Assembly: GCA_016765495.1 (NCBI GenBank)
Contig: JAESPV010000007.1
Coordinates: forward strand, 59,036 to 123,035
DNA from: Desulfocapsa sp.
Lineage (GTDB): Bacteria; Desulfobacterota; Desulfobulbia; Desulfobulbales; Desulfocapsaceae
Direction: 5' to 3'
DNA length: 64,000 nucleotides
Shown: positions 50,335-64,000 of the stretch, piece by piece
How the letters are laid out: every line of letters starts with the position of its first letter
Numbering within the stretch: position 1 is the stretch's first letter
The notes under the pieces: generated by a model
Database searches by the model: none
The model's input: only the letters and a program-made list of their open reading frames with translations
Told to the model about the DNA's origin: nothing
Position numbers and translations under genes: made by a program

Positions 50335-50460
50335 GGTATTTCTCCTCTTTTTGTATTATACAATTTCTGCATTATGCGAGAAATGAACAATAACTCTTTT
50401 TTTTGACAAGGTCATCAACAGTGAATAATCGTTTGTATAAAGTAAGTCGCATGTGGGGAA

Positions 50461-50514
50461 CAAACCTTACAAACCTTACAAACCTTACAAACCTTACAAA
50501 CCTTACAAACCTTA
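50461..50514. repeat. Tandem repeat, 9 bp x 6
   Basis: Six exact head-to-tail copies of CAAACCTTA. The unit length is a multiple of three, so every frame across it stays open. No CRISPR-like spacers. It may vary in copy number between strains. Confidence 0.95.
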
Positions 50515-50766
50515 TTGAACTTAACCCGTCGCATTGTGTACAGTAAAATGACCGTGACATTCCAGATTGAAGGCGGCAGGAACTCTCGCTGATTCAAATG
50601 GTCATATACTGAACTAGAACGAGGTTTATAACACCTGGAGCATATTGGCTTACTTTTTTCCCTCGGTACAACTGAAACTAAAACTCTGTTTGTATCACGA
50701 CATAGGCAAGAATTCTGAAAAACAAAACTCTTGAATTCTGTCGTATCATTGAGCAAGGTTTTTATG

Positions 50767-50835
50767 TGCATTCAGTCCTCCTTTTTAGGATCTTGCAGAG
50801 GTCAATGAACGTTATCATTGATCGGACTGAATGCA
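50767..50835. repeat. Spaced 12-bp perfect inverted repeat
   Basis: TGCATTCAGTCC (50767-50778) and GGACTGAATGCA (50824-50835) flank 45 bases. It could be the ends of a tiny non-autonomous element or a hairpin linked to the nearby IS110-like remnant. Confidence 0.7.
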
Positions 50836-53744: not shown

Positions 53745-53792
53745 ATATCAAACAAAACACAGGGTAGAATCAACTGAATGCCCCTACCCTGT
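53745..53792 (-). terminator. Terminator of the 54-64 kb gene train
   Basis: On the minus strand ACAGGGTAG (53792-53784) pairs with CTACCCTGT (53767-53759), followed by GTTTTGTTTG. It lies 50 bases past the metalloprotease stop and closes the train. Confidence 0.75.
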
Positions 53793-53842: not shown

Positions 53843-54862
53843 TTACGTACTTACTTTGATAGTGTAATTACCAGTGCCTCCGGATTGATTATAGTGCCTG
53901 AGTTGTACAAAATATTGACCTGCAACGAGGTCTACAACAATTCTTGAATTGCGTCCAATTCCGCCATCATCATCCTCGGCAATCAATGCAGTTTGACTTT
54001 CTGGCCCAAACAGTTTCATCACAACATCTGTTTGTCCACCTGTTTCTATCGTATAACGACCATCCGACTTCGCAGTGAAAACAAAAAGATCTTCTTCTCC
54101 AGGCTGGCCTATGCTGGCCGATACTCCTGTAGTATCGATAACAGGAACCTCGACAGGATCTCCAGCCACATCCGGGTACGCTTCAGCACCTGCAATAAAA
54201 GCCTTGTCTACATCCGAGAGTGTCTCATTTTCCTTGGTGCCCTCACCACTTGCGACCCAACTATCGGGAAAGAAATACAGCATAATTGAATCACCATCAA
54301 AAATAGTGCCTCGTATCTGGTCGGACCTATACTTATTAAGAACATTACTTCTGATCTGTGCCTCAGTCCAGGAATTTGGTGGTCCACTCAAATCACGGAT
54401 CACAATTTCCTCATTCCATTCGATTCCACCAGCAGGGTTCTGATGTTCATGGGCAAGGCCAATAGCATGCCCAAATTCGTGCAGAACAACACCCTGGTCT
54501 TGCCATCCAAGGTTCATTGTAGGTTCGTTCTGAGGGATTCTCTTGGCATCGGTACCGACCCACGACCACGCCCCATCATTAGCATTGAAAACGATACGGA
54601 TCTCCGCATCAGGTGCATCGGTGAATTCAAACTTCAGGTTGGCATGCTCAGTCCATTCCGGAGCGAAATCCCTGACAATTTGTTGCTGTTGATCTGTGCC
54701 ATCCAAAAATCGGATGCGCAGGGTCGACCCGTTAATCCACATTTTTTTAAATTCAATTATTGCGCGTGAAGCACCTCCTCCCGGGGAAGCTATCAAACGC
54801 TGTGGAACATGCATTTCGTGCGGTAAAATACGTTCAAAGCAAATTCTTGGATAGTCAGTCAT
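53843..54862 (-). CDS. Leaderless zinc metalloprotease (astacin/matrixin-like) with PPC domain
   Basis: 339 residues. Zinc motif HEFGHAIGLAH at 128-138 (HExxHxxGxxH) and a Met-turn SIMLY near residue 194, close to astacin SIMHY, mark a metzincin. The C-terminal ~100 residues (SASIGQPGEEDLFVFTAKSDGRY ... NQSGGTGNYTIKVST) form a bacterial pre-peptidase C-terminal (PPC) beta domain. No signal peptide is present. AAGGAG sits seven bases from ATG 54862 (MTDYPRICF), which fixes the start. As the last gene of the tail-like train, it may be a delivered effector, which is inference. Confidence 0.88.
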   Translation of the reverse strand: MTDYPRICFERILPHEMHVPQRLIASPGGGASRAIIEFKKMWINGSTLRIRFLDGTDQQQQIVRDFAPEWTEHANLKFEFTDAPDAEIRIVFNANDGAWSWVGTDAKRIPQNEPTMNLGWQDQGVVLHEFGHAIGLAHEHQNPAGGIEWNEEIVIRDLSGPPNSWTEAQIRSNVLNKYRSDQIRGTIFDGDSIMLYFFPDSWVASGEGTKENETLSDVDKAFIAGAEAYPDVAGDPVEVPVIDTTGVSASIGQPGEEDLFVFTAKSDGRYTIETGGQTDVVMKLFGPESQTALIAEDDDGGIGRNSRIVVDLVAGQYFVQLRHYNQSGGTGNYTIKVST

Positions 54863-54969
54863 AACCATTCTCCTTTGTCTTTGTTTTACGCTATTCTCCA
54901 ACACAGTGTTGAAGTATTTTGTCCAAATACAACAGATTTCCCACCGAACAAAACAGACGTGACGAACAA

Positions 54970-55941
54970 TTAGTCATCATCTGGCTTGCTGCCTAGCTTT
55001 CGCACATGTGCTTCATCCACATCGACCGACTGGTGAAAATATGAGTCTCTCCCCAGTTCTTTGTCTCTCATGCTAACTGTTTTTACATGCTGAAAATTAT
55101 CCGGTGGTCTAACATCTCCTTTTGTTTCTTCATAAAGAGAAAACCAAGGTAACCCGTGTTCGGTATAGGTTTTGGCATCAATTGACGTAGGCGGTGGCTC
55201 CTGACCGGTGATTTTTCGAAATTGGCCAGTATTAAGAATATGTATTGTGATCCGCCCACTGCTATCCTGATTCCAGACATTAATGCCGTGAATATCCGGA
55301 TAGATCTTCTGCTTCATTATCCCACCGGCTCCGATCCCCATCTGTTGTGTTACCGGAACTGCCGACTGTGGCCTGCCAAGTCTGCCATGCTCAATGGTAG
55401 TTTTTGGAGGCGGTTTATCAGGGAATATTCCTGGTTTAGGTTCAAATACAGTCAGCTGGATACCCCCGAATTCTTCAGTACCAGTAACCAGAGATTCAAC
55501 TGTATACCCTAGCCCTAAGGGCATAGCCACGAACTGACGAATCGTTCCATGACCAGCATTGATTCCATCGAGCCAGATTTGTTCTGGACTCACGATGTAA
55601 TCCTGTGGCTCGTTCAATGTGTAACTATGGTCGAGCTTACCGGAAATCACATTCACACCACCGACTGTTATCTTCACTGCATTTGGTTTCCAGGCCGCAG
55701 CTCTGAATCCGAGCCAAAGAGCTTCACGCTGATACATCGGAATAAATGCCCCACCCTCTTCCAACCAATCCGGCGGTATTTTGGCAGCATAATCTTTCAC
55801 ATCAAAAATAGAGATACGGCCTAAACCGGGAGGTAAGGGGTAAGCACGCCCATCATCAGGAATACGCAGGGTACGGTAGAAGGCAACAGCAAAACGTGTC
55901 CCTATCTGCACCATATTTTTATCAATCACGACATTGAGCAT
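54970..55941 (-). CDS. Conserved hypothetical protein (RTLRIPDDG...YPLPPGLG family)
   Basis: 323 residues, no signal peptide or membrane segment. The N-terminal ~190 residues carry RTLRIPDDGRAYPLPPGLG, FIPMYQREALWLGF and WKPNAVKITVGGVNVISG. I recall this pattern in uncharacterised proteins of actinobacteria, cyanobacteria and myxobacteria, but know no function. The middle is proline-rich (KPGIFPDKPPPKTTIEHG) and the C-terminal third (GINVWNQDSSGRITIHIL, LPWFSLYEE) looks like a separate beta domain. It lies 108 bases upstream of the metalloprotease on the same strand. It could be an immunity, adaptor or surface-binding protein; unassigned. Confidence 0.8.
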   Translation of the reverse strand: MLNVVIDKNMVQIGTRFAVAFYRTLRIPDDGRAYPLPPGLGRISIFDVKDYAAKIPPDWLEEGGAFIPMYQREALWLGFRAAAWKPNAVKITVGGVNVISGKLDHSYTLNEPQDYIVSPEQIWLDGINAGHGTIRQFVAMPLGLGYTVESLVTGTEEFGGIQLTVFEPKPGIFPDKPPPKTTIEHGRLGRPQSAVPVTQQMGIGAGGIMKQKIYPDIHGINVWNQDSSGRITIHILNTGQFRKITGQEPPPTSIDAKTYTEHGLPWFSLYEETKGDVRPPDNFQHVKTVSMRDKELGRDSYFHQSVDVDEAHVRKLGSKPDDD

Positions 55942-56077
55942 TATTGACCCCTGTTGCTCTTCTGTTTTTTTGTATTGAAATTGCAGCGTAATATGCTCAA
56001 CTTATTTCGTACACGTTCCTTCTCCCTGAGCTTGCTGGCTAATCACAATGTACATTGCAAAAAACAAACTGAAAAAG

Positions 56078-57031
56078 TCACGTATCCATCAAATCACCAA
56101 GAAGTACCTTTTGTAATCGGGCATCATCAAGGGCGACCTGAAGAAGAGCTAATTCCTCCTGCAATTGAGCTAACATTTCAGCAGTAAAATCCGGAGATTC
56201 CATTTCACTAACGATTCTTTCTGGATGCTGAATTAGAAGATTACTGATTGTATAGTAAGACAACTGGGCAAATGGTGACAAGGTCACCTTTAGAGTCATG
56301 ACTAACCTGGCCTTTGCGTGTAATTCTCTTAGTTTGACAAGTGGTATACCTCCAAGAGGAAGTAGTGGATCAATATTTATTAGATCACCAATTGTGTGTA
56401 TTCCTTCTGCGTCAAAATCATCTCCATATCCCTTACCAACACCGTCTATGCTAAGAACTGGAAATGCAGCACCAAATCCAGTTATTTCCTCCCTTGGCGC
56501 CCCCCCTCCTACAAATGTCAGGCGTAACTCTCTATTAAGAGTAAGTACCGGGGTGAGGTCATAACGTTCATGCATCACGTGGTTTATCATGTAACCTGAG
56601 TTTGCCTGATCAGTTGCATTTCCACCGAAGAGCCCGAATTCCCGCAAGGGTTGCGAGCCGTTTGTGACAACTTCCTCTCCCTGTACCTCCATAGTTATAG
56701 ACAAAAAGCTTGTGGGATACTCAACGGGTTCACCATCGTTGTTGAGATAAATAATCTGATCAACAGGAATGGGCTTGCGATATACCTCATTTGTCAATTG
56801 TGTATCTGTCAAGAGAGGGACAGGACGAGTTACATCCCATGATGTTTCCCCTTCTCCCATGGCAAGATAGAGAATGCCCTTTGTTTCTTCATGACCTTTC
56901 ATCAGCATGGACAAAAGTGTATTGCACTGTCGGACAATACGATTTGATTGCCATGGACTTTTCAGGATGTGCGAACCGCCCTTATGGCTAAGCACATCCT
57001 GAAAAGAGCCCTGTAGAAGATTTATCTGCAT
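56078..57031 (-). CDS. LREFGLFG-family tail-like protein with helix-hairpin-helix-like C-terminus
   Basis: 317 residues. The N-terminal ~170 residues are paralogous to the protein at 62220-62744: (I/D)R(Q/C)xxLL...MKG, a short LAMGEGETSWD segment and LREFGLFG...YMI(N/D)(H/Y)V. This looks like a tail-fibre or baseplate-type beta domain. The C-terminal part (VLSIDGVGKGYGDDFDAEGIHTIGDLINIDPLLPLGG...KLRELHAKARL) resembles the helix-hairpin-helix 'GIG...GI.TI.DLA..DP' fold, often a protein or DNA contact. The last ~50 residues form a coiled-coil-like helix. Ribosome-binding site weak. Confidence 0.75.
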   Translation of the reverse strand: MQINLLQGSFQDVLSHKGGSHILKSPWQSNRIVRQCNTLLSMLMKGHEETKGILYLAMGEGETSWDVTRPVPLLTDTQLTNEVYRKPIPVDQIIYLNNDGEPVEYPTSFLSITMEVQGEEVVTNGSQPLREFGLFGGNATDQANSGYMINHVMHERYDLTPVLTLNRELRLTFVGGGAPREEITGFGAAFPVLSIDGVGKGYGDDFDAEGIHTIGDLINIDPLLPLGGIPLVKLRELHAKARLVMTLKVTLSPFAQLSYYTISNLLIQHPERIVSEMESPDFTAEMLAQLQEELALLQVALDDARLQKVLLGDLMDT

Positions 57032-57073
57032 AACAATAACTGCCTGTTATTATACCTGTTCATTTCTGGAGAC

Positions 57074-60000
57074 TTAAAAGCTAAACACCAGCCCAAGTGT
57101 CGCCTGTGAATTTGTTGTGGATCCGCTCCCCATGACATTATCAACCTGCAAAACCCGGCCATCCAGTCTCAGTCCAAAAGAATTATTCAGTTTTAAAGTT
57201 GCACCAACACTGCCTTGATAGGCGAAAGCTTCATCGTCATTGCCAAATCCTCTGAAAAATACATATCCGGCACCAGCGGATACATAAGGGGTCAGTTGGC
57301 CATATCTCGTGTTAGCGGTGGTAATATCGTAACGTGCACTCAGCAATGTCTGAATCATGTTGCCCGAATTGCCTGAAGTTGTTTCTGTTAATGTAATACC
57401 AACTTCAGCTTCCAGATACAGCTGCTTGAGCAGTGCCACGTTAAAACGGCCGCCAAACACTATATTATCATCTAACCCTAAGGCACTATCGAAAAAAGAT
57501 ATGCCCACAAACGGTACTAATTCATAAACACCGCCACCAAGGTTTACTATTTTTTCAAAACCACCCTCTTCATCAACAAAAGTCACAGTGGGCTTTCTGC
57601 CGTTTTCAGAATAACGCACTTGCTGTAAATAGGTGCCGTTGTTGAGATCCTGCAAACTGCCATCTAAATTACCACCTTGGATAGTGACTTTATACCGATG
57701 CGCAAACCCCGGACCAACATAGTTGCCCTTTTGGTCGCGTGGCAGAAAATAAACAGATAAAACCTGCCAACCATCAATAACCGATCCGCTAAGTGAAGTT
57801 ACCTCAGAATTATCCTCATCAGGCAGAATCCCCACAAATTGTGAGAGCATGCGGGTACGCGAAAACTTTAAGCCATCACTGGTTGTTCCACGTACATGAA
57901 ATCGAAAAGTGTAACTGCCTTCTAAATCCGTATTTGCATAACTTAGGCCATACATTCCATCATTTGCTATTGAATCGCCATGGCTACCGTCGTCATAGAG
58001 TTTTAAACCGGGAAGAGTATCCTGATCCAGACCATCTTTTTCGCAGCGATTGAAATGATACTCTGCCAAGGCATAACGACCAGGGATAGGATCATTACTG
58101 CCAGTTACTGAAACAGTACTTGTAAAAGCATTCTCTCTTGTGGGAGTTTTGGCAGGCAAACAACCGGGAACATTTGTCAATCCATAACATGACAATCTGA
58201 TATCATCATCTTCATCAGAGGGTAGTTGGGGATTTTTTTTCTCACAATTCTGTTGTACAGTTGACAGATAATTCCCCAGGCCCTCACCTGGCTTCGCGAC
58301 TTCCACGCTGACTTCAGCGCCAAGCAACGGACTTGCCATATCTTTTAAGTTTACCTCTAAAAGAAGTGACTCACCTGCATTATATGGTTTCTGCTCAACT
58401 AAAAAACGGGCCATGACCCTGAGATCAGCCAGTACATATTCATTGTCTGGAGCTGTGCCACCGCTGGCACCATCAATTTCCCAGCTACCGCTCAAGTCAT
58501 CACCTGGTGAATCAGGATTAATATATACAGAAGCTGCGTACCCAATATGAGTATTCTCATAATGTGCAACAGGTGTCATTGAAATAAAATTCCGTTTCAC
58601 CACCAATTGGGACGCATCACTGGCAGTGTTCCAGACACCGATAAACACCAATTTATCTGGTGCACCGGCATTGTAAAAACCACCGACTTCTCCCACCTGA
58701 TTGATAGCTAATGGTGCCTGCAAAGCTTCTAGATAGGCACGTAATAAATCATCAAAAGCATCCGTTTGATTATACTTTGCTTCATGGGTATAGGCTATAC
58801 CTCCATTAAAGGCCGTTGCGATATTAGCTAGTAAAGTGGTATCGGCAATTCCGTCCGGTCCAATGGAAATAGTACGCACCTGTGAAAACGCTTTCTCAGC
58901 GGCCGTATGGTCGGAAGCCGGGTTGTAAGGCACGTGGGCCGGGGGCATATTATGCAGACCATCACTTAACAAGATAGCAATCCGGTCTTCTTTAATGCGA
59001 TCAGCAGGAAGAGGATTTACAAAGCTTAATTGATCATTCAAAGCAAATTCTACGCCACGCCTTATTGGAGTGCAATTATTGCCGGCAGGATCTGCAGAGT
59101 TACCGGAAGTCAATGAGCTGGTACCAGTAGGCGGGTTTGAAACATCTACCAACGCTGTTCCGGCACCGATACCCGGCACAGAGCCAGTAGTGTCCCCGGT
59201 TGCGTTGTTTCCGCTGCATGACCAGGAATATTGAGCTATGCTGATTTCATCATCAAACATATTATACGGATCTTTAAACAGGCCAAGAGTGGCAGAAAAC
59301 AAATCAGCTGCCCGCTTGGCTCTTGTCCAGCGATTATCCGTTCCACTATCCATTGCAAGCATACTTCCTGAGTTGTCAAGCGTTACTGCGTACTTAACTG
59401 GATATCGTAGTTTTAAATTAGCCCAGTCAGCGGCATTGACATTGTTTAAGTTACAATCAAGTGACGTTGTAGGAGAGCAGGCATTATTGAAGGGATAGCT
59501 TGCCTGCGGAGCAGGAGCACCACCTGAACCATCTGCATTAGTAATAGCATTGGCGCCATCGGATTTTGCAGTTATAAGTAGCCCCACAACCTGGGGAAAA
59601 TAGCCCCAACCCAAATCAGCAGGAGTTAATACCAACTCACCGGCCCAGCCGCTCTGTAAACCTGAATCAGCCGTACTATATTCACCGGCATGGTCAGCAA
59701 TAACCTGAGCGTTGCTTATGGAGATCTGAGAACCGGTGGAGAAGAGCCCTCCACTACGACTTATTCGTTCGATTGAACATGACCCAGGCGCACCACAACT
59801 AGTCCGTCTTATACGCAACATAACGTCCTCTGCGGCACTATCACTGATACCGCTGCCATGATTATGTAAGCGATCAAAAACAAACTCAATACTATCGCCA
59901 CTATTATTTGACGTGTCGTGCACGGAATAATAGATTCGCAATTCTTCATCTCCGCTGCCGCTGCGGTAACGTTTCATAAAGACCTTGGCTTCCATATACA

Positions 60001-60211
60001 AAGAGCCACCTAGCTCCACCATTTCCGCTGAGCTGTATTGTGTGCCACCAGTATTCACACCATCAGCAGTAAATGTAATGCTGTTATCCCGCATTACTGT
60101 GTGATTAGTGTTGACATCAGTGGGATTGGTGGTGGCAAAGGAAATCTTGGCAAATAATAACAAACTAAATAACACAAAATACCAACATCCCTGTCTGGTT
60201 TTGTTTCGCAT
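57074..60211 (-). CDS. von Willebrand A domain protein fused to an outer-membrane beta-barrel
   Basis: 1045 residues. A signal peptide (about 10-26) is followed by a beta-rich N-terminal domain, then a VWA domain whose metal site DNSGS is at 279-283 (YAVTLDNSGSML) with AILLSDGLHNM near 410. The middle (about 500-850) is a run of Ig-like domains of PilY1/TadG flavour, with a Cys-rich insert. The last ~155 residues form an OmpA/OMP-like eight-strand barrel (FNVALLKQLYLEAEVGI, QLTPYVSAGAGYVFF, FGLRLDGRVLQ), ending in the outer-membrane terminal Phe (LGLVFSF). It should anchor in the outer membrane and expose the VWA part. AAGGAGA precedes the start. Sits between the DUF6519-like and LREFGLFG-HhH genes. 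Confidence 0.88.
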   Translation of the reverse strand: MRNKTRQGCWYFVLFSLLLFAKISFATTNPTDVNTNHTVMRDNSITFTADGVNTGGTQYSSAEMVELGGSLYMEAKVFMKRYRSGSGDEELRIYYSVHDTSNNSGDSIEFVFDRLHNHGSGISDSAAEDVMLRIRRTSCGAPGSCSIERISRSGGLFSTGSQISISNAQVIADHAGEYSTADSGLQSGWAGELVLTPADLGWGYFPQVVGLLITAKSDGANAITNADGSGGAPAPQASYPFNNACSPTTSLDCNLNNVNAADWANLKLRYPVKYAVTLDNSGSMLAMDSGTDNRWTRAKRAADLFSATLGLFKDPYNMFDDEISIAQYSWSCSGNNATGDTTGSVPGIGAGTALVDVSNPPTGTSSLTSGNSADPAGNNCTPIRRGVEFALNDQLSFVNPLPADRIKEDRIAILLSDGLHNMPPAHVPYNPASDHTAAEKAFSQVRTISIGPDGIADTTLLANIATAFNGGIAYTHEAKYNQTDAFDDLLRAYLEALQAPLAINQVGEVGGFYNAGAPDKLVFIGVWNTASDASQLVVKRNFISMTPVAHYENTHIGYAASVYINPDSPGDDLSGSWEIDGASGGTAPDNEYVLADLRVMARFLVEQKPYNAGESLLLEVNLKDMASPLLGAEVSVEVAKPGEGLGNYLSTVQQNCEKKNPQLPSDEDDDIRLSCYGLTNVPGCLPAKTPTRENAFTSTVSVTGSNDPIPGRYALAEYHFNRCEKDGLDQDTLPGLKLYDDGSHGDSIANDGMYGLSYANTDLEGSYTFRFHVRGTTSDGLKFSRTRMLSQFVGILPDEDNSEVTSLSGSVIDGWQVLSVYFLPRDQKGNYVGPGFAHRYKVTIQGGNLDGSLQDLNNGTYLQQVRYSENGRKPTVTFVDEEGGFEKIVNLGGGVYELVPFVGISFFDSALGLDDNIVFGGRFNVALLKQLYLEAEVGITLTETTSGNSGNMIQTLLSARYDITTANTRYGQLTPYVSAGAGYVFFRGFGNDDEAFAYQGSVGATLKLNNSFGLRLDGRVLQVDNVMGSGSTTNSQATLGLVFSF

Positions 60212-60244
60212 CTCTTTCTCCTTGTTTGGTGAATATCCAATTTC

Positions 60245-62203
60245 TTAAGGTGTCATACCTACGACAATGGGCAATTCGATTAATTTCGTCTTACCGGCCA
60301 TCACCGGTGCCCCATCAGAATGAGTTAAAGTGGCAGTGATGATCAAAGTGAAGTTAATGTCCTCTGAGACACCACTTAGACTCGGCGCAAAAATGGTTAT
60401 AGTGACGGGTTGATCAGCATCGGATACAACAAGATTCGACTGTTCCTGTGGCGACGGGGGCAACCAGGCCCCTGGGTTCACACCAGCTGGCGATGTTGGC
60501 GGCCATTGTAACTCATGATTTAAGCGGAAGGTATGTTCCTGGCCCGTAACGCCACCGCCGCTACTGTTAACCAGGGTAAAATTCACATCGTATGTTTTGT
60601 TTTCAATTTGGGCGCGTGAGATAATCAATACGCCACCTGATAATGGAACATTTCCACTGTAATAGAAAAAGGTCGCTCCTGGCGGAGGAGAACCAATAGT
60701 AAATGTCTCCGCCGGAAGTACGGACTTTATACTCGAACGTCGATGCGCACGGGCAATCAAATTGACTTGCGCTATTTCACCATTGGCCAGGCTATCATCC
60801 GGATCAACGCTCATGACCACCTCTTCACTCTGACCAGGTGCCAGAGTAACGCTGCTTTTGTCCAAAGTAATCGCCCATCTCACATCACTGCCATAGGCTT
60901 CCAGGTCAAACTGCTCTGCTGTGGTGGGAATCTGCAAGTCACTTTCTACCCGATAGGTTATTGTAAAACCGGTTAATGGATCTATTGCGGTTGAAGGAGC
61001 TACTTCTTTCATACTGACAAGCACATCTCCTTCGGGCAAATTCCCGGTGCTTAAACTCAAATACTCAATTAATGCCTCTTGTTCCTTAACAGTAGTAAGA
61101 AAATCCTGGTCATTGATTGCCGGTTGAATCCCACCTATATTTTTCCCCGAATCACCATTGATATAGGATTCATATAATTTATAGATATCCGGATCCCCAC
61201 TGCTAATGGAACGTAATGCCGTAATCATTCGTTTTTGTGCATTCACCAGACTTTGCATGACTTTCAACCCGTCGCTGTTATCCAGGTTTAAAGTGTCACT
61301 ATTCACCTCGGCTGCTGAGGTAAAATAATACAAATCATTAAAGGCGTTTTGGTAAATAATGAACACATTTAAGCCGGATGTACCACCAACTGGAAATAAA
61401 ATATTTTCCTGCCAGATTCTCAACACACTACGCAATTCAGACAGCATGGAAGAAAAGCGTTCCGGGCCGAGTTCTTCGCTCCCGCGCTTGATGTACATAG
61501 GAGCCTTTACAGCATCGGCTAGCGTCAACCCCATTCGTCGTAAATCCATACTCATATAGGGCTGAATACGTATGCTGTCGCTGCGGAAAAGTTTTGCCAG
61601 AGGTAAGTATTTATGGCCACTTTCATTTAAAATGAGATTATCGAAATCCGTCTCATTTTCCGCCACCCACACAGTCCAGCGCCGTTCCTGACGCAAAGCA
61701 GTTTCCACTCCAATAGTAGCATTCACTAATCGGGCATCGCTGTAATCACCGCTATTAGCACTGGTTTCCTGCTCCCATACATCGAGATAGACTATATCTG
61801 TCCGATCTCCTGATGGCGTTGTTAAATCAGTACCCGTTGAAACACCATTGCTATCCAGAAATCTGGGCTGTTGTGAATACTGGATACGTTGTGGATTGAA
61901 TACCTGCCAGCCCCCAAGCATTACTACACCAGCTTCGATGGCGAAGTCATTATCCACCTCTATTGACGATATCGCAAATCCTTGACCTTTCCCCGGTACT
62001 CCATTGCCAATCACATCGCGAAGAAGCAATTCAATTGTATGCATGGGTATATCAACAATTTCATTCAAATCTGAATCAAGCACCGGCACACCCTGCTGCA
62101 TCCTGACGCCAACATAATGCCTTGGGTTTACAACCGTTTCCTTAGTAACAAATTGATGCATTACATTGGTCAACTTGAATGTATCTCTTGAAAAATCACT
62201 CAT
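60245..62203 (-). CDS. DUF6519-like phage-tail-associated protein
   Basis: 652 residues, no signal peptide. The opening MSDFSRDTFKL and the segment HYVGVRMQQGVPVLDSDLNE match the SRDTF...HYxxVxMQQGRVxLDADWNE start of DUF6519 proteins, which I recall from actinobacterial and myxobacterial phage-tail-like (contractile) gene clusters. The middle is helical (LLSELRSVLRIWQENILF ... NAQKRMITALRSISS), and the C-terminal ~250 residues form beta-sandwich domains (WAITLDKSSVTLAPGQSEEVVMSVDPDD). It may be a tail fibre or baseplate-associated adaptor. GGGGGAAA precedes the ATG. It is 16 bases downstream of the LREFGLFG paralog gene. Confidence 0.75.
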   Translation of the reverse strand: MSDFSRDTFKLTNVMHQFVTKETVVNPRHYVGVRMQQGVPVLDSDLNEIVDIPMHTIELLLRDVIGNGVPGKGQGFAISSIEVDNDFAIEAGVVMLGGWQVFNPQRIQYSQQPRFLDSNGVSTGTDLTTPSGDRTDIVYLDVWEQETSANSGDYSDARLVNATIGVETALRQERRWTVWVAENETDFDNLILNESGHKYLPLAKLFRSDSIRIQPYMSMDLRRMGLTLADAVKAPMYIKRGSEELGPERFSSMLSELRSVLRIWQENILFPVGGTSGLNVFIIYQNAFNDLYYFTSAAEVNSDTLNLDNSDGLKVMQSLVNAQKRMITALRSISSGDPDIYKLYESYINGDSGKNIGGIQPAINDQDFLTTVKEQEALIEYLSLSTGNLPEGDVLVSMKEVAPSTAIDPLTGFTITYRVESDLQIPTTAEQFDLEAYGSDVRWAITLDKSSVTLAPGQSEEVVMSVDPDDSLANGEIAQVNLIARAHRRSSIKSVLPAETFTIGSPPPGATFFYYSGNVPLSGGVLIISRAQIENKTYDVNFTLVNSSGGGVTGQEHTFRLNHELQWPPTSPAGVNPGAWLPPSPQEQSNLVVSDADQPVTITIFAPSLSGVSEDINFTLIITATLTHSDGAPVMAGKTKLIELPIVVGMTP

Positions 62204-62219
62204 CGCGCGATTTCCCCCA

Positions 62220-62744
62220 TTAAAAAATTAAATGAATTGTTCTGTCCAAAATATCAGCCGCCTGTTTATGAATAACCGGATGACGAACATAATCGATCAT
62301 GTACTCCTCTGTTCCAAACAGGCCAAAAAGTCCAAACTCCCGTAACGGGTACGACGTTTTTCCGCTTGGAATTGGCGGAGTACCAGCGTCAAAGGTAAGT
62401 GTAATTCTTAATCGCTGTGTTGGGCCTGGAGTACTCTTTCCCGTAGCATCCAGGTATTCTATCTGGCTAGATCCTATCGGTATATCAATTGGACTGGGAT
62501 CGGTAAGTTGTTCAATAATTCTTGTCGGAGACTCCGGGGAGATACTGTCCCAACTTTCAAGCCCCCTTCCCACCTTTAATGTTTGTATTCCGATTGAAGT
62601 ATCACCCTTCATAAAAGCGGCCAACAGGTAGCGGCAACGATCAACAATGATATTAGAACTCCAGCCAAAATCTATGACCCGATTTCCAGCACGAACTAGG
62701 CGATCTTGATAAATCCCCTTTGGCAATATACGTTGCAATGTCAT
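62220..62744 (-). CDS. LREFGLFG-family tail-like protein (short paralog)
   Basis: 174 residues, equivalent to the N-terminal half of the protein at 56078-57031: RCRYLLAAFMKGD, LKVGRGLESWDS, RLRITLTFDAG and YPLREFGLFGLFG...YMIDYVRHPV. No helix-hairpin-helix tail. This arrangement resembles phage tail-fibre N-terminal or baseplate modules where an 'LREFGLF' turn is recurrent. GGAGGA precedes ATG 62744. It lies between the beta-propeller-like gene and the DUF6519-like gene and is probably cotranslated with both. Confidence 0.78.
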   Translation of the reverse strand: MTLQRILPKGIYQDRLVRAGNRVIDFGWSSNIIVDRCRYLLAAFMKGDTSIGIQTLKVGRGLESWDSISPESPTRIIEQLTDPSPIDIPIGSSQIEYLDATGKSTPGPTQRLRITLTFDAGTPPIPSGKTSYPLREFGLFGLFGTEEYMIDYVRHPVIHKQAADILDRTIHLIF

Positions 62745-62770
62745 GAATACACATCCTCCTACTCAATGTG

Positions 62771-64000
62771 TCAGGAGATATCTTCTCCTGGACCTGGGAT
62801 TACTTCTTCTACAGTGCTAGTCAGAATATCACTGTGTGACTCATTGATGAAGCTCGACCCCTCTGACAATGGCAAGCCATAGCTATAGACCCATTCCCTA
62901 TGCACATCCTGTTTTGTAATAAAAACTGCCCGGTCAGTAATAGGTATAAATTCACTTAAAACCTTCTCAATACGCTTAATCCCTGCCTCAACCTGTTCTT
63001 TATCCATTGTATTGTTTTCCAGATAAAGACCGATGGTATCGCGAGCATACCAAGCATCATTAGTTTTTCTCACATCATAGGTATACGCTTGAAAATCCCC
63101 AAACTTCTGACGGAGGCTAATTTTATCACTATTTCTTGTATCAACTGTGGTGCATCCGGAATAGCGAAAATCCCGTGTTTCTGTTGCGTTATAGACTTCA
63201 CTACGATATGTCACACTTGCATTGGAATGATGTATGAGCATCAGACTGGTATTATTGATGGACAGAGGGAAAGGATCACGCTGAGAATGTGGCCCACCTG
63301 TCACCTGATTCGCATTTGCCGCATCATTTGTCTCAATATCATCGAGTGTATCACCCCATATTGACCAGCTGCCATTTCTGTTTGAACTCCAGAAGAGTTC
63401 GACGTTCCCACTCCTCACCAGAGCAGCTGGTTCACGGTCATGATACAATGCATCAGTTGGATCTTTCGGCAGGGTCTGGACAGCTCCCCAATCAGATACA
63501 GTCGGGTCAAGCCCCTGTTTAAATCGATATACGATTACCCAGCGTTTTCTGTCCGGATCGCTACTTGCTTCTTTTCTTGACCAGAAAATATAAATGGGCT
63601 GTGTCACATCACCTGAGTGAAAGAGGACAAAAGGATCTTCCATGAAATTTCCATCCATTGGAAAATCTGCCGGAGTGGATAGTTGCCAGACTGTGCCATC
63701 ATGTCTGTTATATTTCATCTGCCAGAGATCGGCTTGACGTTCAAGCCAGAATAGCCACACACCTCCAGAGCTATCTGACATGACCAGAGGCCTCTTACGT
63801 TCTGCATCAATTCCTGCAAAAGGGGCATCATTCTCCGGCGACCATATCTGGTCAACCATGGACCTGGATTCGATACTCCAGGTATTATTTTTTTCACTGT
63901 ATGTACTCCAGAAAAGCCAGAGTTTGTCGCTCTGCATGGCAGCAGTGGGGTGTTTATCAATACTCAGACGATTTGTAATCGGTTTACTCGGCGACCACCC
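62771..64000 (-). CDS. Beta-propeller-like repeat protein, partial (5' end beyond window)
   Basis: At least 409 codons, open to the right edge. The segment VWLFW..., IYIFWSRK, VELFWSS..., with WSPENDAPF and WSIW..., gives about six imperfect repeats of W(L/I)FW(S/L)xRxxxxWxI, the look of a YVTN/NHL-type or sialidase-like beta-propeller used for binding. The C-terminal ~120 residues (EVYNATETRDFRYSG..., DTIGLYLENNTMDKEQVEAGIKRIEKVLSEFIPITDRAVF) form a different, helical domain and end in an acidic tail. It would be the most upstream visible gene of the train and may recognise a target surface. Confidence 0.75.
   Translation of the reverse strand, partial: GWSPSKPITNRLSIDKHPTAAMQSDKLWLFWSTYSEKNNTWSIESRSMVDQIWSPENDAPFAGIDAERKRPLVMSDSSGGVWLFWLERQADLWQMKYNRHDGTVWQLSTPADFPMDGNFMEDPFVLFHSGDVTQPIYIFWSRKEASSDPDRKRWVIVYRFKQGLDPTVSDWGAVQTLPKDPTDALYHDREPAALVRSGNVELFWSSNRNGSWSIWGDTLDDIETNDAANANQVTGGPHSQRDPFPLSINNTSLMLIHHSNASVTYRSEVYNATETRDFRYSGCTTVDTRNSDKISLRQKFGDFQAYTYDVRKTNDAWYARDTIGLYLENNTMDKEQVEAGIKRIEKVLSEFIPITDRAVFITKQDVHREWVYSYGLPLSEGSSFINESHSDILTSTVEEVIPGPGEDIS

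Follow-up and report, generated by a model that had tools for sequence, protein, structure and literature searches.

A putative exported vWA protein matched to the DUF6519 tail fibre of an extracellular contractile injection system in Desulfocapsa sp.

Among the extracellular contractile injection systems (eCIS) in print, one group carries tail fibres with DUF6519, published as eBAP5, one of five eCIS fibre anchor domains, and uses Tail_P2_I adaptors, as far as the source was covered (PMC12923769). The 64,000-nucleotide stretch of Desulfocapsa sp. DNA analysed here (the window, bases 59036–123035 of a 283-kb contig) ends within a gene cluster of this kind, in which the fibre gene is directly followed by a gene for a large vWA-domain protein that looks like a membrane-anchored partner of the fibre. 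As in the eBAP5 systems, the DUF6519 fibre gene comes after those for baseplate J and a putative adaptor of the Tail_P2_I kind, and eCIS_core, Pvc16 and CIS_tube are present, while a matched next gene, proteins with the LREFGLFG motif (LREF) and an exported vWA partner are unmentioned in the parts of that paper covered. Three further contractile injection systems (CIS) are precedents for a machine that may need a membrane partner: CisA of Streptomyces coelicolor (PMC12237407), the thylakoid-anchored tCIS (PMC8894136) and the haloarchaeal membrane-bound CIS (PMC11566945). According to the parts of these papers covered, CisA resembles the present protein in being a cluster-encoded membrane protein just downstream of baseplate genes, but it has a long cytoplasmic part and sits at the usual place of the fibre, whereas the vWA protein would be almost completely exported and is encoded beside a fibre. 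In tCIS the fibre region likewise links to the producer's own membranes, but the anchor is an extension of fibre and baseplate parts and not a separate exported protein (PMC8894136). Finally, Hbor_38620, a candidate cluster-encoded membrane anchor in a subset of CIS, differs by its six helices and by some 150 residues that form a cytoplasmic domain, with no vWA domain mentioned in the parts covered (PMC11566945).

Publications already cover the eCIS themselves, their DUF6519 fibres and the presence of vWA domains in such systems. What is new is the vWA protein, which looks like an exported cognate partner of a single fibre tip, fixed in the membrane by anchors that can be exchanged: neither an exported vWA partner of DUF6519 fibres nor a cassette of a tip plus the next gene in eCIS was described in the literature covered, in which some sources were available in part and supplements, subscription papers and preprints lay outside the scope. 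How CIS attach to, or spare, their own producer is understood in only a few models, and a fibre-matched membrane-anchored protein recurring in probably three phyla would be a concrete candidate for such an attachment; a cassette rule would, moreover, allow prediction of eCIS fibre partners from sequence. The original prediction, made from the letters and open reading frames of the window, considered its mix of tail-like parts with an outer-membrane-anchored vWA protein and a leaderless protease to be new; the truly unusual part is the vWA protein, and the LREFGLFG–DUF6519 pair is an ordinary phage fibre module.

All seven minus-strand genes which had been proposed as the accessory end of a contractile injection system are open reading frames (ORFs; Table 1). 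The window end falls inside their operon and, by ORFs and Pfam, genes of the same direction run for about 16 kb past it into the stretch to the right (L002; L003 lies farther on). The upstream neighbours there are eCIS core genes and not ordinary metabolic ones: sheath, tube, gp25, baseplate J and AAA+ ATPase genes, which had been suggested as the ones to look for beyond position 64000, are all present in the same direction, as are Pvc16 and eCIS_core. After the 795-aa adaptor the order is baseplate J, gp25, a 119-aa protein, a gpV-like OB protein, a gpD-like hub, a 265-aa protein, CIS_tube, eCIS_core (DUF4157), AAA ATPase, Pvc16, an unknown 384-aa protein, T4_baseplate, tube and sheath. The Pfam matches in L002 include Phage_sheath_1 (48.7 bits), Phage_T4_gp19 (146.4 bits), Pvc16_N (136.3 bits), AAA (118.1 bits) and eCIS_core (DUF4157, 80.3 bits); GPW_gp25, Baseplate_J and Phage_base_V exceeded the cut-off, and the Phage_GPD-like hub remained under it (28.3 vs 30.1 bits). 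No PAAR family matched in L002 at E 0.01 or better. Capsid or packaging genes were absent from the flank ORF lists by eye, with no profile search for head genes made, and families exclusive to type VI secretion systems were absent from the general Pfam matches, with no search aimed at them. The G+C content was 43.6–44.8% in the operon, close to the 42.8–43.3% of the flanks. The intergenic gaps measured 16–42 bases as far as 56078 and widened to 136 and then 65 bases at the two final genes. Judging by its gene content, the operon is almost certainly a complete eCIS with a fibre of the tail-protein-I plus DUF6519 (eBAP5) type, and the window genes would be its fibre end.

Table 1. Features of the fibre end of the operon (window positions) and the three classes of fibre tip and next gene
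Feature	Position or loci	Strand	Evidence
Tail-protein-I-like baseplate adaptor, C-terminal half of 795 aa	62771..64000, gene goes on to L002:3193	-	open frame; homologues
LREF1, LREFGLFG protein, candidate baseplate–fibre adaptor	62220..62744	-	PHROG 5417 9.5e-9
DUF6519 (eBAP5-type) tail fibre, 652 aa	60245..62203	-	PF20129 22.8 bits vs cut-off 22.4
Fibre C-terminal region (tip), co-varying with next gene	60248..61537	-	BLASTP of tips, tblastn of next genes
vWA protein, 1045 aa	57074..60211	-	signal-peptide-like N-terminus, CBM9-aligned region, vWA, choice-of-anchor X, OmpA-like barrel
vWA domain, about residues 270–500	58712..59404	-	DxSxS...T...D metal site
Choice-of-anchor X domain, residues 737–773	57893..58003	-	NF041940 9.3e-11, 41.3 bits vs cut-off 25
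C-terminal beta-barrel, residues 893–1045, last residue Phe	57077..57535	-	PF13505 4e-4, 21.0 bits vs cut-off 28.7
LREF2, second LREFGLFG protein with extra C-terminal region	56078..57031	-	PHROG 5417 7.9e-7
Conserved unknown, first gene of probably separate two-gene module	54970..55941	-	plasmid homologues
Myroilysin-like astacin metalloprotease with PPC domain, no signal peptide	53843..54904	-	PF01400, PF04151; 5czw 1.4e-38
Terminator-like hairpin, then TGTTTTGTTT	53760..53791	-	fold z -3.46 for 108-base stretch
Class 1: 135-aa next gene	L017, L028, L037, L038
Class 2: 199+236-aa next genes	L025, L027, L029
Class 3: vWA next gene	window, L039, L041, L053

Full-length homologues of the vWA protein were found in four genomes including that of the window, the other three belonging to Halomonas ramblicola, Candidatus Brocadia and another member of the Brocadia family, and in 4/4 the gene lies 20–33 bases behind an eCIS DUF6519 fibre gene. 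Each of the four proteins begins with a hydrophobic stretch resembling a signal peptide and contains a choice-of-anchor X domain; choice-of-anchor X domains often precede surface-sorting signals. The residues D279, S281, S283, T381 and D417 are invariant in the three-row alignment (window, L041 and L039), and their pattern, DxSxS...T...D, is that of the vWA metal site. The VWA_2 cut-off of 27 bits was passed by L041 (29.1) and L053 (29.2), the window protein and L039 remaining below it, and no solved structure matched the vWA alignment. Weak Invasin_D3 matches under the cut-off were present in L041 and L053, and the window protein has a region which aligns with the CBM9-like domain of L041. 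The anchors differed: the window protein ends in an OmpA-like barrel, whereas the C-terminus of the other three is a single helix followed by a basic tail. The barrel stretch matches the N-terminal parts of OmpA-like proteins in a genome of the same order (G054, 1.5e-11). Of the predicted fusion of vWA with an outer-membrane barrel, both domains score under the Pfam cut-off in the window protein, but its metal-site residues are intact and its barrel stretch has the OmpA-like matches. By sequence, the product of the next gene in this class starts in the manner of a signal peptide, carries a membrane anchor and has a vWA domain whose metal-site residues are intact in the three aligned proteins.

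The coupling of this gene to the fibre is part of a more general pattern. The comparison started from 18 loci of many phyla obtained in a pattern-based genome scan with a three-row baseplate J alignment (48 pattern matches); the fibre tips, i.e., the fibre after its DUF6519 N-terminal domain, were compared by all-against-all BLASTP and the next genes by tblastn, the latter in 16 loci. The class of the tip coincided with the class of the next gene in 11/11 loci of three classes, and none of these next genes matched in any other of the 16 loci searched. A clear case is the pair of close relatives L028 and L029: five upstream proteins are 73–93% identical, the fibre N-domain 87% and the following 45 residues 89%, and beyond a sharp point within the fibre the tip falls to 25% identity and the next genes differ. 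The tips of L027 and L029, on the other hand, are 82% identical and have their next genes in common. The concatenated core rejects a single clade for class 2 (p-AU 1.5e-54) and class 1 (p-AU 2.0e-5), which indicates that tip and next gene of these classes moved together. These AU values are rough, since the core is a mosaic and L017 fills 43% of its columns; the classes, moreover, although set by tips and next genes, were drawn up with the core tree already known. More weight belongs to the fall in identity within the fibre gene. That the eCIS core has itself recombined is visible in L027, whose AAA ATPase is 57–58% identical to those of L029 and L028 compared to 87–92% for baseplate J. Thus, in the relatives the sequences reveal the fibre tip and the gene directly behind it as an exchangeable matched cassette. 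Phages, too, exchange tip and partner gene together.

The core tree comprised 15 rows, of which L030, L031, L035 and L040 belong to no class and stand outside the 11/11. Six of the 18 loci (L024, L026, L032, L033, L034 and L036) stop short of the fibre or within it and entered neither the core tree nor the tip comparison, and L018, being from the contig that also gave L028, was omitted. The distant DUF6519 loci L019–L023 of the window's own phylum were likewise excluded; their fibres measure 965–1359 aa, different genes follow, and vWA matches are absent. In class 2 the second gene behind the fibre is AbiEii-nucleotidyltransferase-like (L025:16499-17209, L027:16649-17371 and L029:16541-17311; of the two scanned, L025 has a Pfam match above the cut-off and L027 one below it), and with its partner of 199–208 aa it makes up a toxin–antitoxin-like pair inside the eCIS operons.

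The distribution of the vWA protein is narrow. Gene maps place the homologue directly behind the fibre in Halomonas ramblicola (E 3e-61) and in Candidatus Brocadia (3e-86). In overlapping genome sets searched with the three-row vWA alignment (E of 1e-20 or lower), matches were obtained in 2/294 genomes of the Brocadia phylum and 2/33 of the Brocadia family, 1/201 of the Halomonas family, 3/175 of the Halomonas class (two of them partial) and 1/395 of the window's phylum, and in none of 150 and 148 genomes of two further phyla; in 19 genomes the alignment gave three full-length and four partial or weak matches. A search with the single vWA sequence against 56 relatives produced three matches, namely the own genome and two partial ones. 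Within the Brocadia family a close baseplate J (E about 1e-271) was present in 2/33 genomes, the same two that have the vWA gene, and five other genomes with a distant baseplate J (1e-21 to 1e-24) had no vWA match. Searches by peptide pattern confirmed none of 13 pattern matches in genome contigs and revealed no relatives on plasmids, and with the three-row alignment none of 84 pattern matches in viral contigs was confirmed.

The vWA protein is most simply understood as an envelope protein matched to the fibre tip; it would be neither an inner part of the particle nor loaded cargo, because the signal peptide, if working, exports it. That the fibre and the vWA protein make up a functional pair is, in our judgement, likely. 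The occurrence of VWA and Invasin_D3 domains inside eBAP4 fibres, reported in the parts covered of PMC12923769, fits such a link between fibre and vWA. In the mechanism we favour, the vWA protein would bind its own fibre at the tip, its metal site probably making the contact, and act as an envelope dock of the producer cell, for which either a barrel or a C-terminal helix could serve as the anchor since attachment alone would matter. Particles assembled in the cytoplasm would meet it upon a breach of the envelope, or siblings would capture released particles; the producer's envelope would then be where the machine is held, displayed or fired, and free drifting would not be its only fate. The best explanation overall, combining a complete eCIS, a matched cassette of tip and next gene and the vWA protein as the producer's envelope dock, has in our estimate slightly less than an even chance. 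For the single step that makes the vWA protein a dock or receptor on the producer's envelope we are tentative and lean towards doubt, and the full proposal, in which cassettes of cognate second proteins include an exported vWA receptor with a swappable anchor that binds the machine's own fibre tip and docks a nominally free-floating machine on the producer, appears rather unlikely.

Several observations weigh against the docking proposal. The vWA loci number only four, two of them close relatives. Export was deduced from hydropathy and not from a signal-peptide predictor, and an eight-stranded barrel, the strand number being assumed, would place the vWA domain in the periplasm. Some distant proteins that combine choice-of-anchor X with a barrel-like or helical end are encoded far from any eCIS gene, and for partial relatives sharing the last third, whichever way they end, the stretches of 13–19 kb read contained no eCIS genes, so that the last third of the vWA protein would be a general surface module. 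The helix tails leave about 5–10 residues in the cytoplasm, which makes a CisA-like grip on cytoplasmic particles unlikely. The four vWA-linked fibres form one clade in the fibre tree (100/99), albeit with long-branch warnings including the row of the window; for the vWA class alone the discordance with the core was borderline and not significant (p-AU 0.07, in a test that left out the loci ending too early, which the first baseplate J tree had labelled 'no'), and a single inherited core clade of vWA-linked systems is thereby neither shown nor rejected, which means that shared descent could explain the linkage in this class. The tip of L035 is distantly related to the vWA-class tips (1.7e-16 to L041 and 4e-11 to the window) and that of L030 more weakly (9e-7 to 8e-4), both without a vWA gene, and the border of the class is therefore a matter of degree. 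The tips of classes 1 and 2 also have a stretch of 44–57 residues in common before the break.

A 1505-aa M36-peptidase-like protein with choice-of-anchor X and, by eye, a barrel-like end is encoded in the genome of the L027 eCIS, on another contig (L057:8044-12561). In favour of the docking proposal, the long fibres of L030 and L035 are also followed at once, 6 and 10 bases on, by a protein with a hydrophobic start and a helix and without vWA; the C-terminal helix of L035 passes only with a 15-residue window, and the helices of L030 are internal. A rule that a membrane protein follows every long fibre was dropped: it applied to 6/7 fibres of at least 630 aa among the 15 rows, the exception being L031 (874 aa, of another architecture). 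A CBM9-like N-domain common to the vWA and the L030/L035 proteins is not claimed either, as the matches were weak (hmmsearch E 4e-4 and 7e-4 against two sequences; hhalign probability at most 2%).

The main rival to an envelope dock is self-exclusion, in which the vWA protein binds or masks the target of the tip and so spares the siblings of a lysed producer, as superinfection-exclusion proteins do for phages. A protection protein specific to the tip would be expected to change together with it, as the next gene does, and a hydrophobic start plus a membrane anchor in four homologues suits it equally, but in the seven loci of the other two classes that were measured the next genes have no hydrophobic start (two with one internal stretch), so that exclusion is not the general task of the next-gene slot; since masking also needs less than a large multidomain protein, we consider this explanation unlikely, if worth keeping in view. 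Alternatively, the vWA protein may be an ordinary surface adhesin, encoded within the operon, which brings cells to the same target and never touches the particle: surface proteins often carry vWA, CBM9-like and choice-of-anchor X domains and larger partial relatives exist without eCIS genes, and yet the full-length family was seen only behind DUF6519 fibres and is paired with one fibre class, which leaves the adhesin quite unlikely. A firing adaptor similar to CisA, on the cytoplasmic side of the inner membrane, would answer the same functional need from a similar place near the baseplate genes, and contraction inside Streptomyces cells requires CisA in the parts of the report covered (PMC12237407). 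The layout of CisA, with a long cytoplasmic N-terminus, a single helix and an extracytoplasmic C-domain, is nevertheless different from a signal-peptide-like start with a C-terminal anchor; CisA exposes about 285 residues to the cytoplasm compared to the few of the helix tail, the bulk of the vWA protein being exported, and the barrel version has no inner-membrane helix, so that such a role is very improbable. Least credible of all is an injected effector, for although vWA (PF00092) is among the named eCIS-associated toxin domains (PMC8213781, as far as covered), a signal-peptide-like start and a membrane anchor in four homologues are ill-suited to loading into the tube within the cytoplasm.

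The fibre of the window, which had been labelled DUF6519-like, passed the PF20129 cut-off narrowly, and the link of this domain to contractile tail-like clusters, stated in the original prediction, agrees with its published role as the fibre anchor eBAP5 (PMC12923769, in the parts covered). The homologous fibres gave 37.4 (L041), 26.6 (L039), 37.9 (L030), 39.1 (L035) and 29.9 bits (L053). The fibre gene is located downstream of baseplate J and the adaptor, and an N-terminal insert, LTNxMHQ, is common to the window fibre and the three other vWA-linked ones. The protein first described as beta-propeller-like does contain a repeat region that is propeller-like by eye, but it is only the C-terminal half of the 795-aa tail-protein-I-like adaptor. 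The latter has no Pfam match of its own and its best structural match was at E 0.85; among six homologues, four matched Tail_P2_I at 20.2–21.9 bits (cut-off 20.6, reached or passed by L030 with 21.9 and L035 with 20.6, two others remaining just short) and two had no match.

Both LREFGLFG proteins match PHROG 5417, a family of unknown function, and the helix-hairpin-helix label of the second one was unmatched in Pfam, PHROGs and NCBIfam; among solved structures there was only a chance match (E 2). In the tailed-phage module with PHROG 5417 the order gp25, baseplate J, tail-I-like, LREF and DUF6519-like fibre is, as far as the pieces extend, the same as here, and no frame in 26 viral-contig pieces had the vWA protein as its best match. 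A DUF6519-type fibre directly follows LREF in 24/26 viral-contig loci, a count that includes near-identical contigs and L092, itself an eCIS-like contig, and in many of the pieces reaching far enough tail-I-like, baseplate J and gp25 genes precede LREF; a single-sequence DUF6519 query gave no match in viral contigs. In L092, a viral-contig record resembling an eCIS locus, the tail-I-like adaptor with LREF at its C-terminus is one 997-aa frame (L092:3535-6528). LREFGLFG plus DUF6519 is, by gene order and profile matches, a fibre module common to eCIS and tailed phages. Because of the LREF–fibre order in the viral loci and the L092 fusion, we infer that LREF1 may be the adaptor joining tail protein I to the fibre, which would give PHROG 5417 a likely place between these two. 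LREF1 is not universal (no match in L032, L040, L041 and L053) and had no match in phage records. For LREF2, which is probably the last gene of the eCIS operon, the only phage match was gp190 of Bacillus phage G, in two records of the same phage with unnamed neighbours. It was also present behind the fibre region in L017, L025, L027, L037 and L038, in a shorter form in L039, and was not found in L030, L031, L035, L041 and L053. In the Halomonas copy (L039:18909-19538) the usual C-terminal region is replaced by a short stretch with cysteine.

The leaderless metalloprotease at the end of the gene row is indeed astacin-type (PF01400, M12A: 39.7 bits vs cut-off 22.5, E 5.5e-10; myroilysin structures 1.4e-38) and has no hydrophobic N-terminus. 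Its closest known counterpart is myroilysin of the astacin family, from which it differs by the missing signal peptide, the PPC domain and the pairing with a conserved unknown. The same region, across astacin and PPC, matches the NCBIfam model 'beta-glucuronidase AbsR1' (1.9e-53, far under the model cut-off), a name that sits badly with an astacin fold. The conserved unknown, which had no match among solved structures, has homologues on six plasmids with up to 54% identity: it stands side by side with an M12-type protease on plasmids of Kovacikia minuta and Bradyrhizobium barranii, occurs without a protease nearby in Miltoncostaea and Euzebya, and was also matched in Streptomyces and Bosea. 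No other eCIS protein matched in the Kovacikia and Bradyrhizobium stretches (20.9 and 12.9 kb) or in those read of Miltoncostaea and Euzebya. Since the two genes lie side by side on plasmids with no eCIS gene in the stretches read, they are treated as a separate module, and the protease, first suggested to be a toxin-like part of the machine, is probably not one. The Kovacikia protease is in two overlapping frames (L100:11029-12094), and this copy may be broken. Alternatively, the protease would be eCIS cargo with the partner as its loading or immunity factor: it is leaderless and lies at the 3' end of the operon, a position typical of eCIS toxins (PMC8213781, as far as covered), and protease matches exist some kb from two other eCIS, in L017 (8e-6, opposite strand) and G564 (9e-32, L054:6643-8691). 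The latter two, however, have a hydrophobic N-terminal stretch and no partner gene, the plasmid pairs are without eCIS matches in the stretches read, a gap of 136 bases separates the pair from LREF2 and no such pair turned up at other eCIS loci as far as their flanks were read, all of which makes cargo improbable. Of the clear terminator proposed at 53745-53792 behind the protease gene, the hairpin is real, but its U-tract is imperfect and it was missed by a strict terminator scan; the 108-base stretch folds 3.5 standard deviations below its shuffles, 0/200 of which were as good.

Upstream of the sheath gene by about 860 bases and on the same strand is a gene for a sigma-54-type activator (L002:19198-20000 continuing in L003:2-598); a search for a sigma-54 promoter before the sheath gene gave nothing above chance, with eight two-mismatch matches in L002 against 10.2 expected. 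Farther upstream of the eCIS, a transposase-like gene, which we take to be IS66-like, is located within a region of respiratory cytochrome genes (L003:10995-12407). In the window itself, a small frame at 50415-50771 contains a simple KVC repeat (KVCKVCKVCKVCKVC).

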